Below are positions 50,043 through 54,540 of a stretch of 64,000 nucleotides of DNA, in pieces. The DNA comes from Flavivirga spongiicola (GTDB lineage: Bacteria > Bacteroidota > Bacteroidia > Flavobacteriales > Flavobacteriaceae). The notes beneath the pieces were generated by a model. That model had not been told where the DNA came from. It searched no databases and saw only the letters and a program-made list of their open reading frames with translations. Made by a program: the position numbers and the translations under genes. Where the stretch lies: contig NZ_JAUOEO010000001.1 of assembly GCF_030540825.1 (NCBI RefSeq), positions 2,205,001 through 2,269,000 of the forward strand, in the 5' to 3' direction. The stretch's first letter is position 1. The number at the start of each line of letters is the position of its first letter.

Positions 50043-51871
<1,829 letters not shown>

Positions 51872-51978: not shown

Positions 51979-53079
51979 CTATTTATTCACAGAGAAAATA
52001 TCTTTTAACTGTTCAATCACATTGCCGTTCCCAGCAACTGTAATTTCTCCAATTTTGTCGGCAATTTTCTCAACATATTCCATCTCTTTCAATTTGAACA
52101 ACATGGTGTTGTCTTCCATTAATTTTGCAGTATTTAATAAGCTTCTTGTAGAAGCTGTTTCTTCACGTCTTGTTACCACATTGGCTTGCGCTTTTTTGTG
52201 TGCGATCAATACTTGGTTCATGATATCTTTCATGTCGCCTGGTAAAATGACATCTCGCATACCTGTGTGTAATACATTAACACCTAATTTGGTTGCTTGC
52301 ATTTTTACATCTTTTAAAACTGCTTCAGCAATGGTTTCTTTTTGCTCTAACAATTCATCCAATGTGTAAGCGCCTACAAATGCTCGTAATGCTAATTGCA
52401 ATGTGATGTATAATTGCTTTTCGTAATCTTTGTTTCGCATCAAAGCTGTTTCAATATCTGTGACTTTGTATTGTGCATAAAAGTTAATACGAACGGTTGC
52501 TTTGTCTTTAGTTAACAATTCCTGACCAGCTATTTCTAATTGCAATTGACGCATATCTGCTTTCACTATTTTAATGGTTTGCTCGTTTTTCCAGAAATGA
52601 TATGTGCCATGTTCAAGGGTTTTAACGAACTCGTCGTCGACAACCATGATAGCTTTTTCGTAAGCTGCAACTTCAAATACACGAATATATGGACGCAATT
52701 GTATGTTGTTAAACAATGCTTTGCTAATATCTTCGATGATGTCAATTTTGCCCAAATCGGCAGTCTCAAATTTATAATCAATCAAGCTATTCCAAAAGGT
52801 ATAGCGACCAGCGGTCAATAAGCGTTTGAAGTTACTGTTTTCGTAAACCAAAACAATCTCATTATCTTTTACTTCGATGACGATTAACATTTCGGACAAA
52901 GCTTGATCTTTAAGTAAGATCTCTAATGCCTTTGGTGCTTGAAATGGAACGGTCAAGTCATATTTTATAACGCGCTCACTAAATCTTATCCAATGTTTTC
53001 CAGCGGTAATAACACGAGCGTAATTACCATTTTTAAACACTAAACCTACAAAACCTGCATGAATTCTTACTTTTTTCAT
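51979..53079 (-). CDS. Slipin (SPFH/band-7 family) protein
   Basis: 366 residues. Two tandem band-7-like N-terminal segments (GFVGLVFKNGNYARVITAGKHW and VLVYENSNFKRLLTAGRYTFW, the second followed by a third EHGTYHFWKNEQ) lead into the SPFH core (about 170-290, LLTKDKATVRINFYAQYKVTD and LGVNVLHTGMRDVILPGDMKD). A coiled coil (about 280-340, AQANVVTRREETASTRSLLN) follows. It has no clear membrane helix. Slipins form ring-like oligomers at membranes and are frequent partners of RtcB genes. It lies 120 bases upstream of the rtcB start, and the tRNA-like array lies directly in front, so its mRNA leader may contain those RNAs. Confidence 0.85.
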   Translation of the reverse strand: MKKVRIHAGFVGLVFKNGNYARVITAGKHWIRFSERVIKYDLTVPFQAPKALEILLKDQALSEMLIVIEVKDNEIVLVYENSNFKRLLTAGRYTFWNSLIDYKFETADLGKIDIIEDISKALFNNIQLRPYIRVFEVAAYEKAIMVVDDEFVKTLEHGTYHFWKNEQTIKIVKADMRQLQLEIAGQELLTKDKATVRINFYAQYKVTDIETALMRNKDYEKQLYITLQLALRAFVGAYTLDELLEQKETIAEAVLKDVKMQATKLGVNVLHTGMRDVILPGDMKDIMNQVLIAHKKAQANVVTRREETASTRSLLNTAKLMEDNTMLFKLKEMEYVEKIADKIGEITVAGNGNVIEQLKDIFSVNK

Positions 53080-53465
53080 GATTTCTAATTTTTTGTTCCG
53101 CTGTTTCTTTTTTTACTTCGGAACGATTAAACATTTATAATAGAATTCTCTTATGAGAATGACTATTCTGAGTTAAAACAAAGCAAAAGAAAACGATCTT
53201 TCTAACTACGGAAATACAAGTGATTAAAAGTATTTCAAGAGTCGTTTTTAGAGATGTTTTGTCAATTTGATTTGTGATAGGTTACCATTCTCTTTTGACA
53301 AATGAATCCATAAAAAGGAAATTTAAAACGATTTGTAATACAACTGTATCTCAAGGTGTTTTCTGGACTGCTCAAGCAACAAGTTGCTTGTGCTGGTTTA
53401 ATTTCACTTTGTTTTTGCCGTTTAAAGTGCGACCCACTTGGTGGTCTATTTTTAAAAGTGACCTT
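53080..53465 (-). other. Long leader between the tRNA-like array and slipin
   Basis: No protein gene; open frames on both strands are accidental. Stable hairpins on the minus strand include CAAGCAA/TTGCTTG (53373-53390), ATTCTC/GAGAAT (53145-53160) and GTTCCG/CGGAAC around the A-rich stretch just before the slipin ATG (53095-53124). An AAGTG/CACTT hairpin with a GGTCG loop lies near 53425-53440. This may be the processed 3' part of the array transcript and the slipin leader. Confidence 0.45.
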
Positions 53466-53492
53466 CTTTGTAAAGATGGATTTTGAGTCCAT
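53466..53492 (-). ncRNA. tRNA-Leu(CAA)-like anticodon and variable arms without a body
   Basis: On the minus strand ATGGA-CTCAAAA-TCCAT is a perfect anticodon arm (U33, anticodon CAA, A37), followed by CTTTACAAAG, a short variable-arm-like hairpin. No D arm, T arm or acceptor goes with it. It follows the permuted tRNA-Leu directly. Confidence 0.45.
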
Positions 53493-53575
53493 TTCAAACT
53501 GTAACCTAAATACAGTGCGTCTGCCAGTTTCGCCATCACGCATTTGCGTGAGTAGGATTCGAACCTACACTTGAA
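53493..53575 (-). ncRNA. Circularly permuted tRNA-Leu(UAG)-like RNA
   Basis: Read 5' to 3' on the minus strand: variable-arm strand TTCAAGT, T arm GTAGG-TTCGAAT-CCTAC, acceptor 3' strand TCACGCA, linker AA, acceptor 5' strand TGCGTGA, TG, D arm GCG-AAACTGGCAGA-CGC, A26, anticodon arm CTGTA-TTTAGGT-TACAG (anticodon UAG), variable-arm strand TTTGAA. All seven acceptor pairs match, and TTGAA/TTCAA closes a variable arm. So every part of a class II tRNA-Leu is present, but the 3' half comes before the 5' half and the open ends lie in the variable loop. With the acceptor ends joined, no free CCA end exists unless the linker is cut. Read in normal order the same bases give no acceptor stem. Confidence 0.7.
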
Positions 53576-53644
53576 TCTATTGTTCTAACCAGACTGAACT
53601 ATCTCAAATTGATGAGAGTGGGAATCGAACCCACGACCGATAGA
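53576..53644 (-). ncRNA. Circularly permuted tRNA-like RNA, open in the anticodon loop
   Basis: Minus strand, 5' to 3': anticodon-stem strand TCTAT, variable CGGTC, T arm GTGGG-TTCGATT-CCCAC, acceptor 3' strand TCTCATC, linker AA, acceptor 5' strand TTTGAGA (five of seven pairs, TCTCA/TGAGA perfect), TA, D arm GTTC-AGTCTGGTTA-GAAC, A26, anticodon-stem strand ATAGA. TCTAT and ATAGA pair perfectly, so the transcript's ends meet in the anticodon loop, exactly where tRNA-cleaving toxins cut and RtcB seals. The AA linker is the same as in the neighbouring permuted tRNA-Leu. Anticodon identity is unclear; the loop seems to be TT...AA. Confidence 0.65.
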
Positions 53645-53653
53645 TTGGTGATT

Positions 53654-53670
53654 ATTATTTGGCAAATAAC
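53654..53670 (-). ncRNA. Anticodon-arm-like hairpin with GCC (Gly) loop
   Basis: GTTAT-TTGCCAA-ATAAT on the minus strand has five pairs (one G-T) and a seven-base loop with U33, GCC and A37. Nearby on the same strand are a T-arm-shaped hairpin GTGTT-TCGGTAT-AACAC (53734-53750) and a CCTTA/TAAGG hairpin (about 53702-53721), but I could not assemble them into a full tRNA. Confidence 0.35.
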
Positions 53671-53770
53671 CGAAGCCTTCAAGTCAAGTTGAATATAAAA
53701 ACCTTATACTAAACAGTAAGGATTTATACAATAGTGTTATACCGAAACACGTAACAAGACTTGCTTGATG

Positions 53771-53854
53771 TGGAAGTAGTAGGACTTGAACCTACATGTT
53801 CATAATGAAATCAGATTTACAGTCTGACGAGCCAACCAATTGCTCAATACTTCC
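53771..53854 (-). tRNA. tRNA-Tyr(GUA) or close mimic
   Basis: A complete class II cloverleaf in normal order: acceptor GGAAGTA/TACTTCC (7 of 7), T8, D arm GAGC-...GG...-GCTC, anticodon arm TCAGA-CTGTAAA-TCTGA with anticodon GUA (53818-53820), variable arm TTC/GAA, T arm GTAGG-TTCAAGT-CCTAC, discriminator A73. G1-C72 and A73 are what bacterial TyrRS needs. CCA is not encoded. It is the first RNA of the array, ~100 bases behind the regulated promoter at 53962. Whether it serves translation or only repair/sensing is open. Confidence 0.85.
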
Positions 53855-54009: not shown

Positions 54010-54540
54010 TTACTTTTTTTTCTTCTTGCACTTCTTTTTCTTAGAAGTGTTTTTCTTTGGCTTTACTTTGTCTTTTATTCTGCTAATTTCATTATTGATA
54101 TAGCTTATAAAAGAGTCGTTATACCCAAATGTTTTTGCTTTTTTATATGCTTTTATAGCGGCTTTGTATGCTTCTTTTATTTCAAAAAGCTGACCTTGTT
54201 TGTCCCAAATAGCACCTTTATCTATGCCTTTTACGGTTAATGCAAAGTCTATTAATTTTTGAGCTTCATCCAGATCGTCATTCCATAATAGGGTTTGAAT
54301 ATATTTTGGATATACCTTTTGAAAATCCATTTTTGATGCCAAAGCTTCAGCGAAATACAACTTTGCTATTTCAAAATCTCCAATTTTTTCAGCTTGTAAT
54401 TTCCCCATTAAGAAAAGTGCGTAAGCATTATTGGATTCGTATGATAAGGCGTAGTTTAAATTTTCTACTGTTTCTTCTAAATCGTATGGATAAGCATCGA
54501 TGGCTTTTAGCACATAGTTGTTTAACAAATGTGTGTCCAT
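54010..54540 (-). CDS. TPR protein with poly-lysine tail
   Basis: 176 residues. About three TPR-like helical repeats (LNYALSYESNNAYALFLMGKL, AKLYFAEALASKMDFQKVYPKY, AAIKAYKKAKTFGYNDSFI) end in a highly basic tail, KPKKNTSKKKKCKKKKK, well suited to bind RNA. No signal peptide. It lies upstream of the tRNA-like array on the same strand, and proteins of this size with TPRs occur near RtcB in other flavobacteria as far as I recall, but I cannot name a family. Suggested role: adaptor or RNA-holding factor of the repair system (inference). Confidence 0.75.
   Translation of the reverse strand: MDTHLLNNYVLKAIDAYPYDLEETVENLNYALSYESNNAYALFLMGKLQAEKIGDFEIAKLYFAEALASKMDFQKVYPKYIQTLLWNDDLDEAQKLIDFALTVKGIDKGAIWDKQGQLFEIKEAYKAAIKAYKKAKTFGYNDSFISYINNEISRIKDKVKPKKNTSKKKKCKKKKK

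Follow-up and report, generated by a model that had tools for sequence, protein, structure and literature searches.

A conserved RNA carrying tandem circularly permuted tRNA-like modules precedes slipin genes in Bacteroidota

Upstream of a slipin gene in Flavivirga spongiicola, two adjacent stretches of DNA carry the parts of a tRNA with the 3′ half before the 5′ half, and an RtcB RNA ligase gene follows. Circularly permuted tRNA genes are found in red and green algae and in archaea, where they yield working tRNAs. We ask whether the Flavivirga sequences are genes of this kind, remnants of ordinary tRNAs, or parts of a different RNA. Little is known of the RNAs that naturally partner bacterial slipin and RtcB, and a conserved RNA at such a locus is a concrete candidate molecule. 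The window analyzed here comprises 64,000 nt (contig NZ_JAUOEO010000001.1, positions 2,205,001–2,269,000). An initial annotation had placed two tandem permuted tRNA-like units at 53493–53644 on its minus strand; its letters and coordinates are correct, and relatives of the locus bear out the order (5.80 of 7 acceptor positions paired, against 3.58 in ordinary order; see below).

Layout of the locus

The order on the minus strand is tRNA-Tyr, an RNA of ~580 nt (~53769–53194), slipin, rtcB, and a gene for a 142-aa protein. Both permuted modules form the middle portion of the longer conserved RNA. The features are as follows.

53770–53854, minus strand: tRNA-Tyr (GUA), an extra divergent copy whose 3′ end abuts the RNA (ARAGORN)
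53663–53769, minus strand: 5′ domain of the RNA, non-tRNA, 107 nt, covered by model R1 (21-sequence alignment)
53650–53671, minus strand: hairpin GGTTATT...AATAATC between the 5′ domain and unit 1 (sequence; RNAalifold)
53576–53644, minus strand: permuted tRNA-like unit 1, anticodon loop open (sequence, covariation)
53493–53575, minus strand: permuted tRNA-like unit 2, complete anticodon arm, triplet UAG (sequence, covariation, ARAGORN on the rotated unit)
53476–53492, minus strand: third hairpin ATGGA-CTCAAAA-TCCAT, triplet CAA (sequence)
53194–53475, minus strand: 3′ domain up to a conserved TATTTCCGTA...AAAGATG-like element (alignment)
51979–53079, minus strand: slipin, an SPFH/Band 7 protein (PF01145, 93.3 bits)
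50468–51868, minus strand: RtcB RNA ligase (PF01139, 129.4 bits)
50043–50471, minus strand: 142-aa protein with a C-terminal hydrophobic stretch, overlapping rtcB by 4 bases (ORF)

The rtcB gene is the sole PF01139 match in the genome (E 0.001). The 142-aa protein had no match in a Pfam search and is present in 1 of 22 relatives (L035, 43% identity). The 3′ domain, aligned from 36 sequences retained by length from 46, is conserved in sequence and weakly predicted in structure; its 3′ boundary near 53194 is approximate. A coding reading was rejected: the 93-aa frame at 53262–53543 was matched in 13 of the 80 named loci (best 80 of 530; E 1), and 9 of these 13 contain a stop. A separate 176-aa protein (window 54010–54540, minus strand; no Pfam match) lies upstream of the tRNA genes and the RNA at 19 of the 23 loci, among them the window.

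Unit 1 runs from the 3′ strand of an anticodon stem (TCTAT, 53644–53640) through a T arm (GTGGG-TTCGATT-CCCAC, 53634–53618), an acceptor hairpin (TCTCATC 53617–53611, AA, TTTGAGA 53608–53602), TA, and a D arm (53599–53582) to the 5′ strand of the anticodon stem (ATAGA, 53580–53576). Unit 2 begins with a variable-arm strand (TTCAA, 53575–53571) and continues with a T arm (GTAGG-TTCGAAT-CCTAC, 53568–53552), an acceptor hairpin (TCACGCA 53551–53545, AA, TGCGTGA 53542–53536), TG, a D arm (53533–53517), an anticodon arm (CTGTA-TTTAGGT-TACAG, 53515–53499), and the other variable-arm strand (TTGAA, 53497–53493). The acceptor strands pair at 5/7 positions in unit 1 and 7/7 in unit 2, both as first described. 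The accompanying view that both units are complete tRNAs applies to unit 2; the anticodon loop of unit 1 is open. Each acceptor stem is a closed hairpin, so the modules lack a free 3′ end and cannot be charged.

The window alone leaves the order of unit 1 ambiguous. TTTGAGA of unit 1 also pairs at 5/7 positions with TCACGCA of unit 2, as an ordinary tRNA would require, and the Rfam tRNA model matches 53544–53608 in that order (32.7 bits; threshold 29). ARAGORN, run on the window, called neither unit as a tRNA in native order. With 5/7 pairing both ways, relatives are needed to decide.

Permuted order is conserved in relatives

Relatives were collected by a slipin search in 199 family genomes (23 matched), by a covariance model (R1) of the non-tRNA 5′ domain, and by a slipin-alignment scan of named genomes, from which the best 80 of 530 confirmed loci were kept. 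The 93-locus set comprises these 80 named loci, 12 from the R1 search, and the window.

For structure alignment we used 12 of 15 prepared near relatives, leaving out L106, which has a long loop, and L107 and L110, in which the last module's own anticodon arm is seemingly lost. The window structure pairs in 93.7% of cells in these 12 relatives, vs. 34–49% when partners are slid, and 25 of 36 pairs show changes on both sides. On four of five covariation measures the observed value was unreached by any of 500 shuffles; the number of pair types was not above shuffles (260 of 500). The same order with compensating changes, anticipated for other Flavobacteriaceae, thus recurs at slipin loci in that family and in wider Bacteroidota.

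The 93 loci contain 226 T arms, of which 112 (in 72 loci) have a motif-defined D arm and entered a pairing test; 100 of the 112 strand pairs are distinct, near-identical loci being included. In permuted order the acceptor strands pair at 5.80 of 7 positions on average, with 6 or 7 pairs in 82 of 112 units, compared with 3.34 of 7 for swapped partners (SD 0.13, maximum 3.80) and 3.58 of 7 for ordinary order (40 cases). With the third hairpin read as the last unit's T arm, acceptor pairing is 2.50 of 7 in ordinary order and 5.79 in permuted order (24 units). Conservation within the acceptor stem is lowest at its end pair, where 64% of pairs are standard, vs. 77–90% at the other six positions of the 112 motif-defined units.

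The 800 nt upstream of slipin contain 142 instances of a T arm followed by a 6-of-7 hairpin, spread over 72 of the 80 named loci (best 80 of 530); the reverse strand has 6 and shuffled sequence 5. Both controls are poor in T arms, so that this count tests arm and hairpin jointly. A stricter count places one or more 6-of-7 units within 900 nt of slipin in ~71 of these best 80 of 530 loci, and two or more in 40. No such unit lies within 900 nt in L127, L132, L142, L149, L151, L158, L167, L169, and L170; among these, L142 and L149 have no upstream sequence, and in L151 a unit is visible by eye. A looser detector, with a cut at 5 of 7, also catches neighboring tRNAs. Relatives carry one to three modules per RNA.

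Rotation to ordinary order restores a recognizable tRNA. ARAGORN was run on the 87 units (of 112) that had a findable anticodon arm and 5 or more of the 7 acceptor pairs. It called a tRNA in 68 of 87 rotated units, 0 of 87 in native order, and 7–21 of 87 with mismatched halves. Two finer points of the initial annotation fared less evenly. The identical AA linkers are present in both window units but are not conserved: 2 nt is the commonest linker length (24 of 112 units), and motif-defined lengths reach 46 nt, the long values being possibly misassigned. The letters of TCTAT/ATAGA, proposed to close the anticodon stem of unit 1, are as given, and this outer stem is only moderately supported, pairing 5/5 in 40 of 65 loci (7 skipped) vs. 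21.7 by shuffling (maximum 32).

The Rfam tRNA model also matches many relatives in ordinary order at 29.6–40.2 bits, above its threshold. The modules nonetheless pair in permuted order, and their pairing and conservation hold across these loci.

Anticodon arms and the third hairpin

Perfect hairpins with a 5-bp stem and a 7-nt loop number 120 within 130 nt past the acceptor strand of the last T arm in 88 loci, vs. 21.9 in shuffled sequence. The anticodon-arm place of the last module holds 62 of them, in 60 loci: 53 have U33, 58 a purine at 37, and 51 both. Their leading triplets are UUU (16), UAG (5), GUU (5), CAA (4), and CAU (4). Under the strict rule, a hairpin with U33 and purine 37 is absent in 21 of 88 loci.

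The third (ATGGA-type) hairpin, picked by its stem letters, occurs in 33 loci with T at loop position 2 in 33 of 33; its commonest triplets are CAA (10), UAA (5), and GAA (5). It could be an anticodon-arm-like mimic or the remnant of a T arm. In some relatives the Rfam tRNA model takes it as a T arm, e.g., at L015:995–1064 (40.2 bits), where the arm assignment follows from the match coordinates.

A longer RNA tied to slipin

Of the 30 pairs predicted in the 5′ domain, 16 show changes on both sides among 21 sequences. Model R1 was built from these 21, with L050 and L053 left out. In searches of 199 family genomes and 395 phylum genomes it matches 23 and 14, respectively, which together are 35 different genomes. 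A slipin gene lies downstream on the same strand in 34 of the 35. Within the family, 22 genomes have both R1 and slipin, one slipin alone, one R1 alone, and 175 neither; the Fisher value for this table is inflated because R1 was trained on 21 of the 22 genomes that have both. The phylum search is the independent test: in the 12 phylum genomes outside R1 training, slipin lies downstream in 12 of 12, 574–785 nt past the start of the 5′ domain. The RNA is thus linked to slipin, and sequence conservation reaches close to the slipin start.

The two discordant family genomes are G033 and G036. G033 has a slipin gene (46% identical) without an R1 match, and two T arms lie upstream of it nonetheless. 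In G036 (L101) the RNA ends after the 5′ domain, slipin is gone, and rtcB is kept, a telling case that counts as co-decay of RNA and slipin in favor of the mimic model set out below. A phage origin was considered and rejected: slipin had no match among 50,697 phage records (E 1e-5), and none was confirmed in viral contigs.

tRNA genes and rtcB around the RNA

The DNA of the upstream tRNA-Tyr gene has no other match in the genome at E 0.001. A second tRNA-Tyr gene stands in a Thr-Tyr-Gly-Thr cluster, and a tRNA-Leu(UAG) gene is also present elsewhere; with these ordinary genes available, the modules are not needed for decoding. The gap between tRNA and RNA is 0 in 7 of 22 loci, the window included, and at most 24 nt in 12 of 22. 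Because the tRNA end is the RNA start in several loci, the RNA is probably excised from a tRNA-containing transcript. Among the best 80 of 530 loci, 54 have at least one tRNA gene between 4,000 and 300 nt upstream, and arrays reach 18 tRNAs within 4 kb.

The locus had been introduced as an RtcB locus. An rtcB gene is indeed often near, lying within the examined flanks of 49 of the 80 named loci (best 80 of 530), but none was seen in the flanks of the other 31, which makes slipin the constant partner. In L040, L042, L044, L046, and L049, no rtcB follows slipin within the stretch examined, and a divergent second RtcB (27–29% identical to the window's) is encoded a few kilobases upstream of the RNA.

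Several neighboring elements deserve record. A GOLLD-like RNA (RF02032, 124.9 bits; gathering score 150) occupies L013:3402–3897 on the minus strand, with tRNA-Tyr and the permuted RNA following immediately downstream. In L037, L040, L041, L043, L045, L049, and L089, a conserved insertion of ~150–190 nt separates the D arm from the T arm of a tRNA-like gene; this gene ends 16–235 nt before the RNA, with acceptor strands such as CCTCTT / AAGAGG, or CCCCTT / AAGGGG in L045, and a sequence resembling its 3′ part occurs in Chryseolinea L151. ARAGORN reports a Tyr(AUA) tRNA at L016:488–559, whose body looks by eye like tRNA-His with an altered anticodon, and also in the arrays of L112, L125, L126, and L127.

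Ordinary order and other phyla

In L158 and L170, two of the best 80 of 530 loci, only an ordinary tRNA-Tyr-like sequence precedes slipin by eye. Beyond Bacteroidota, slipins 33–40% identical were found on five plasmid-collection records whose layouts were read by eye. In E. coli and Citrobacter, a T arm and acceptor hairpin are present with next to no D arm, and slipin and a nucleotidyltransferase come after them; in Citrobacter the regulator gene rtcR lies on the other side of the T arm and hairpin. Subdoligranulum has a single permuted unit. In an Rfam scan, neither the tRNA nor the YrlA model matched the units of E. coli, Citrobacter, and Subdoligranulum, which therefore rest on reading by eye. 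In Photobacterium and Burkholderia (L185, L186), tRNA-like sequences in ordinary order stand before slipin and rtcB, supported by the Rfam tRNA model at 54.1 and 46.4 bits and at 42.4 bits, respectively. The first Photobacterium sequence seemingly has a 6-nt anticodon loop. In Subdoligranulum, Photobacterium, and Burkholderia, an rtcB gene (25–29% identical) follows slipin.

The ordinary order in L158, L170, Photobacterium, and Burkholderia means that permutation is not essential to the partnership with slipin. A tRNA mimic before slipin may be a wider theme of which permutation is one form.

Proposed role and alternatives

With a ligase, an SPFH platform, and spare tRNA genes adjoining, a standing tRNA mimic is the simplest reading. 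We propose, at a confidence evenly divided between belief and disbelief, that the RNA may be an uncharged tRNA mimic, acting as decoy or scaffold, for a slipin/RtcB system concerned with tRNA damage, i.e., cutting by anticodon nucleases and resealing by RtcB. A single noncoding RNA of ~580 nt would be cotranscribed, probably, with the upstream tRNA gene or genes and freed at the tRNA 3′ end. It would fold into the 5′ domain, two permuted tRNA modules, the third hairpin, and the 3′ domain. The modules would present a tRNA elbow, to which the last one adds an anticodon arm, with no chargeable 3′ end. Such a mimic could hold or tempt factors that grip the elbow and anticodon loop: anticodon nucleases, and the RtcB that reseals cut loops. 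Slipin would serve as a protein platform to which the RNA may bind. A decoy role, one of the options raised in the initial annotation, would be consistent with these data.

The covariation, the 12/12 tie of R1 to slipin, the co-decay in G036, the arms with U33 and purine 37, and the upstream tRNA genes all speak for the mimic model, as does, from outside, the coregulation of a tRNA array, rtcB, and slipin in Anabaena described in the available text of one report (PMC10272220). Against it stand the 31 of 80 flanks in which rtcB was unseen, the varied triplets, the 21 of 88 loci lacking a U33/purine-37 hairpin, the seeming loss of the arm in L107 and L110, the above-threshold scores of the ordinary-order tRNA model, and the ordinary-order loci (L158, L170, Photobacterium, and Burkholderia). 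A further point against it comes from Salmonella, where, in the part of the report available, fragments of YrlA, which has a tRNA-like domain, were undetected during anticodon nuclease action, although the authors still weigh YrlA as a possible inhibitor of the nuclease (PMC7790460).

More tentatively, the sequences might define a new class of RNA that shows anticodon arms on uncharged, inside-out tRNA bodies, such that anticodon nucleases of phages, rivals, or the cell's own defense would cut the RNA instead of, or before, the tRNAs; RtcB would reseal it, slipin would carry it, and the tRNA array would hold spare parts. If so, the varied displayed anticodons would record the nucleases met by each lineage. 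More generally, if the RNA is a decoy or a sensor, they would point to nucleases facing Bacteroidota.

A somewhat more doubtful possibility is that the RNA is a leader controlling slipin-rtcB, whose modules sense tRNA damage or a tRNA-binding factor so that cutting or refolding alters expression. A leader would be expected immediately before slipin in the same orientation, where the RNA stands in 34 of the 35 R1-matching genomes; the conserved sequence extending near the slipin start would also suit one. However, a molecule with several folded domains, often with a tRNA right at its 5′ end, resembles a stable RNA more closely than a compact switch, and the Citrobacter T arm and acceptor hairpin in the same place have the regulator gene rtcR adjoining.

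We consider it unlikely that the RNA is a Y RNA of the YrlA family that lost Ro/Rsr, duplicated its tRNA-like domain, and took slipin as the replacement for Rsr, becoming an adaptor for delivery of structured RNA to a nuclease or ligase. The Rfam YrlA model does match unit 1 of the window (33.2 bits) and 14 of 16 relatives scanned (28.9–44.0 bits, E down to 1.8e-6), with the same arm order, yet all matches fall below the gathering score of 69. No TROVE (PF05731) partner was matched in the window's genome, in a search whose control matched in 1 of 14 genomes (Deinobacterium), and the likeness could be convergent.

True permuted tRNA genes, in which RtcB or another ligase circularizes the units and RNase P and tRNase Z cut out the linker to give working tRNAs, are very improbable. 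Their order agrees, rotated units look like tRNA to ARAGORN, and a 2-nt linker is compatible with the intervening sequences of 1–74 bp given for known permuted genes in the available text of PMC3978253. Unit 1, however, has no anticodon loop, the units lie inside a larger conserved RNA, the acceptor end pair is the weakest (64%), unlike the 1–72 pair of tRNA, and Tyr and Leu(UAG) tRNAs are encoded elsewhere in the genome. The closed circles that the initial annotation thought RtcB could make find no support in these data.

That the units are degenerate remnants of the tRNA array, or ordinary-order tRNAs, we reject as next to incredible: tRNA genes and odd tRNA-like sequences lie nearby, and the 5/7 pairing and above-threshold tRNA scores leave the window by itself undecided, but the pairing in relatives (3.58 of 7 in 40 cases; 2.50 vs. 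5.79 with the third hairpin as T arm), the compensating changes, and an arrangement constant in dozens of loci—where debris would show random breaks or no covariation—contradict this reading.

Comparison with known systems

The closest known RNA is YrlA (RF02553) of rsr-yrlBA-rtcBA operons. A Y RNA structure (PDB 6CU1) superposes on tRNA with circular permutation, according to the accessible part of one paper (PMC11472068), and YrlA sits in RtcB operons, according to that of another (PMC7790460). The RNA described here shares with YrlA the succession of T arm, acceptor hairpin, D arm, and closing stem, as well as the link to RtcB. It differs in having at least two tandem modules, a complete anticodon arm in the last, and further domains on the 5′ and 3′ sides; slipin rather than Ro/Rsr accompanies it, and tRNA genes lie upstream.

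The protein side has a possible precedent. In 2016, Burroughs and Aravind reportedly noted RNA repair systems in which SPFH/Band-7 proteins have a novel tRNA-like RNA as cognate partner. By that account, the systems have in common with our locus an SPFH gene and a tRNA-like noncoding RNA in an RtcB repair system. Permuted tRNA genes share the 3′ half before the 5′ half, the pairing of acceptor strands, and a short linker; unlike them, unit 1 here is without an anticodon loop and both units lie within a longer RNA.

GOLLD and ROOL of tRNA islands are likewise large structured RNAs among tRNA arrays. The RNA described here, by contrast, goes with slipin genes, and slipin was not found in phage or viral collections. 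Rfam gave no GOLLD (RF02032) or ROOL match to the RNA, in the whole window at the gathering threshold or in a 3.5-kb scan at E 1; a GOLLD search of four genomes with large arrays gave no match there, nor in its control genomes, and so carries no weight.

Closest in gene content is the TrcR regulon of Anabaena. In the available text, TrcR represses a 26-gene tRNA array, rtcB, and the slipin gene alr0740, whose levels increase under an antibiotic that blocks translation (PMC10272220). The same genes move together in a second study, where, in its accessible part, an erythromycin effect could not be excluded (PMC9938897). The three kinds of gene, there switched on jointly, are common ground; unlike here, the Anabaena genes are dispersed, and the available text of the first report mentions no permuted RNA (PMC10272220).

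The initial annotation had regarded a bacterial permuted pair next to an RNA ligase gene as new. That holds in part: the literature searched, mostly without subscription papers, yielded no description of tandem permuted tRNA modules before slipin, and the tandem permuted form looks new, but the permuted tRNA fold itself is known in bacteria from Y RNA, and YrlA is placed in RtcB operons by the accessible text cited above. Fixed upstream of slipin and often beside tRNA arrays, the RNA suggests that the permuted fold of Y RNA may be a wider theme.
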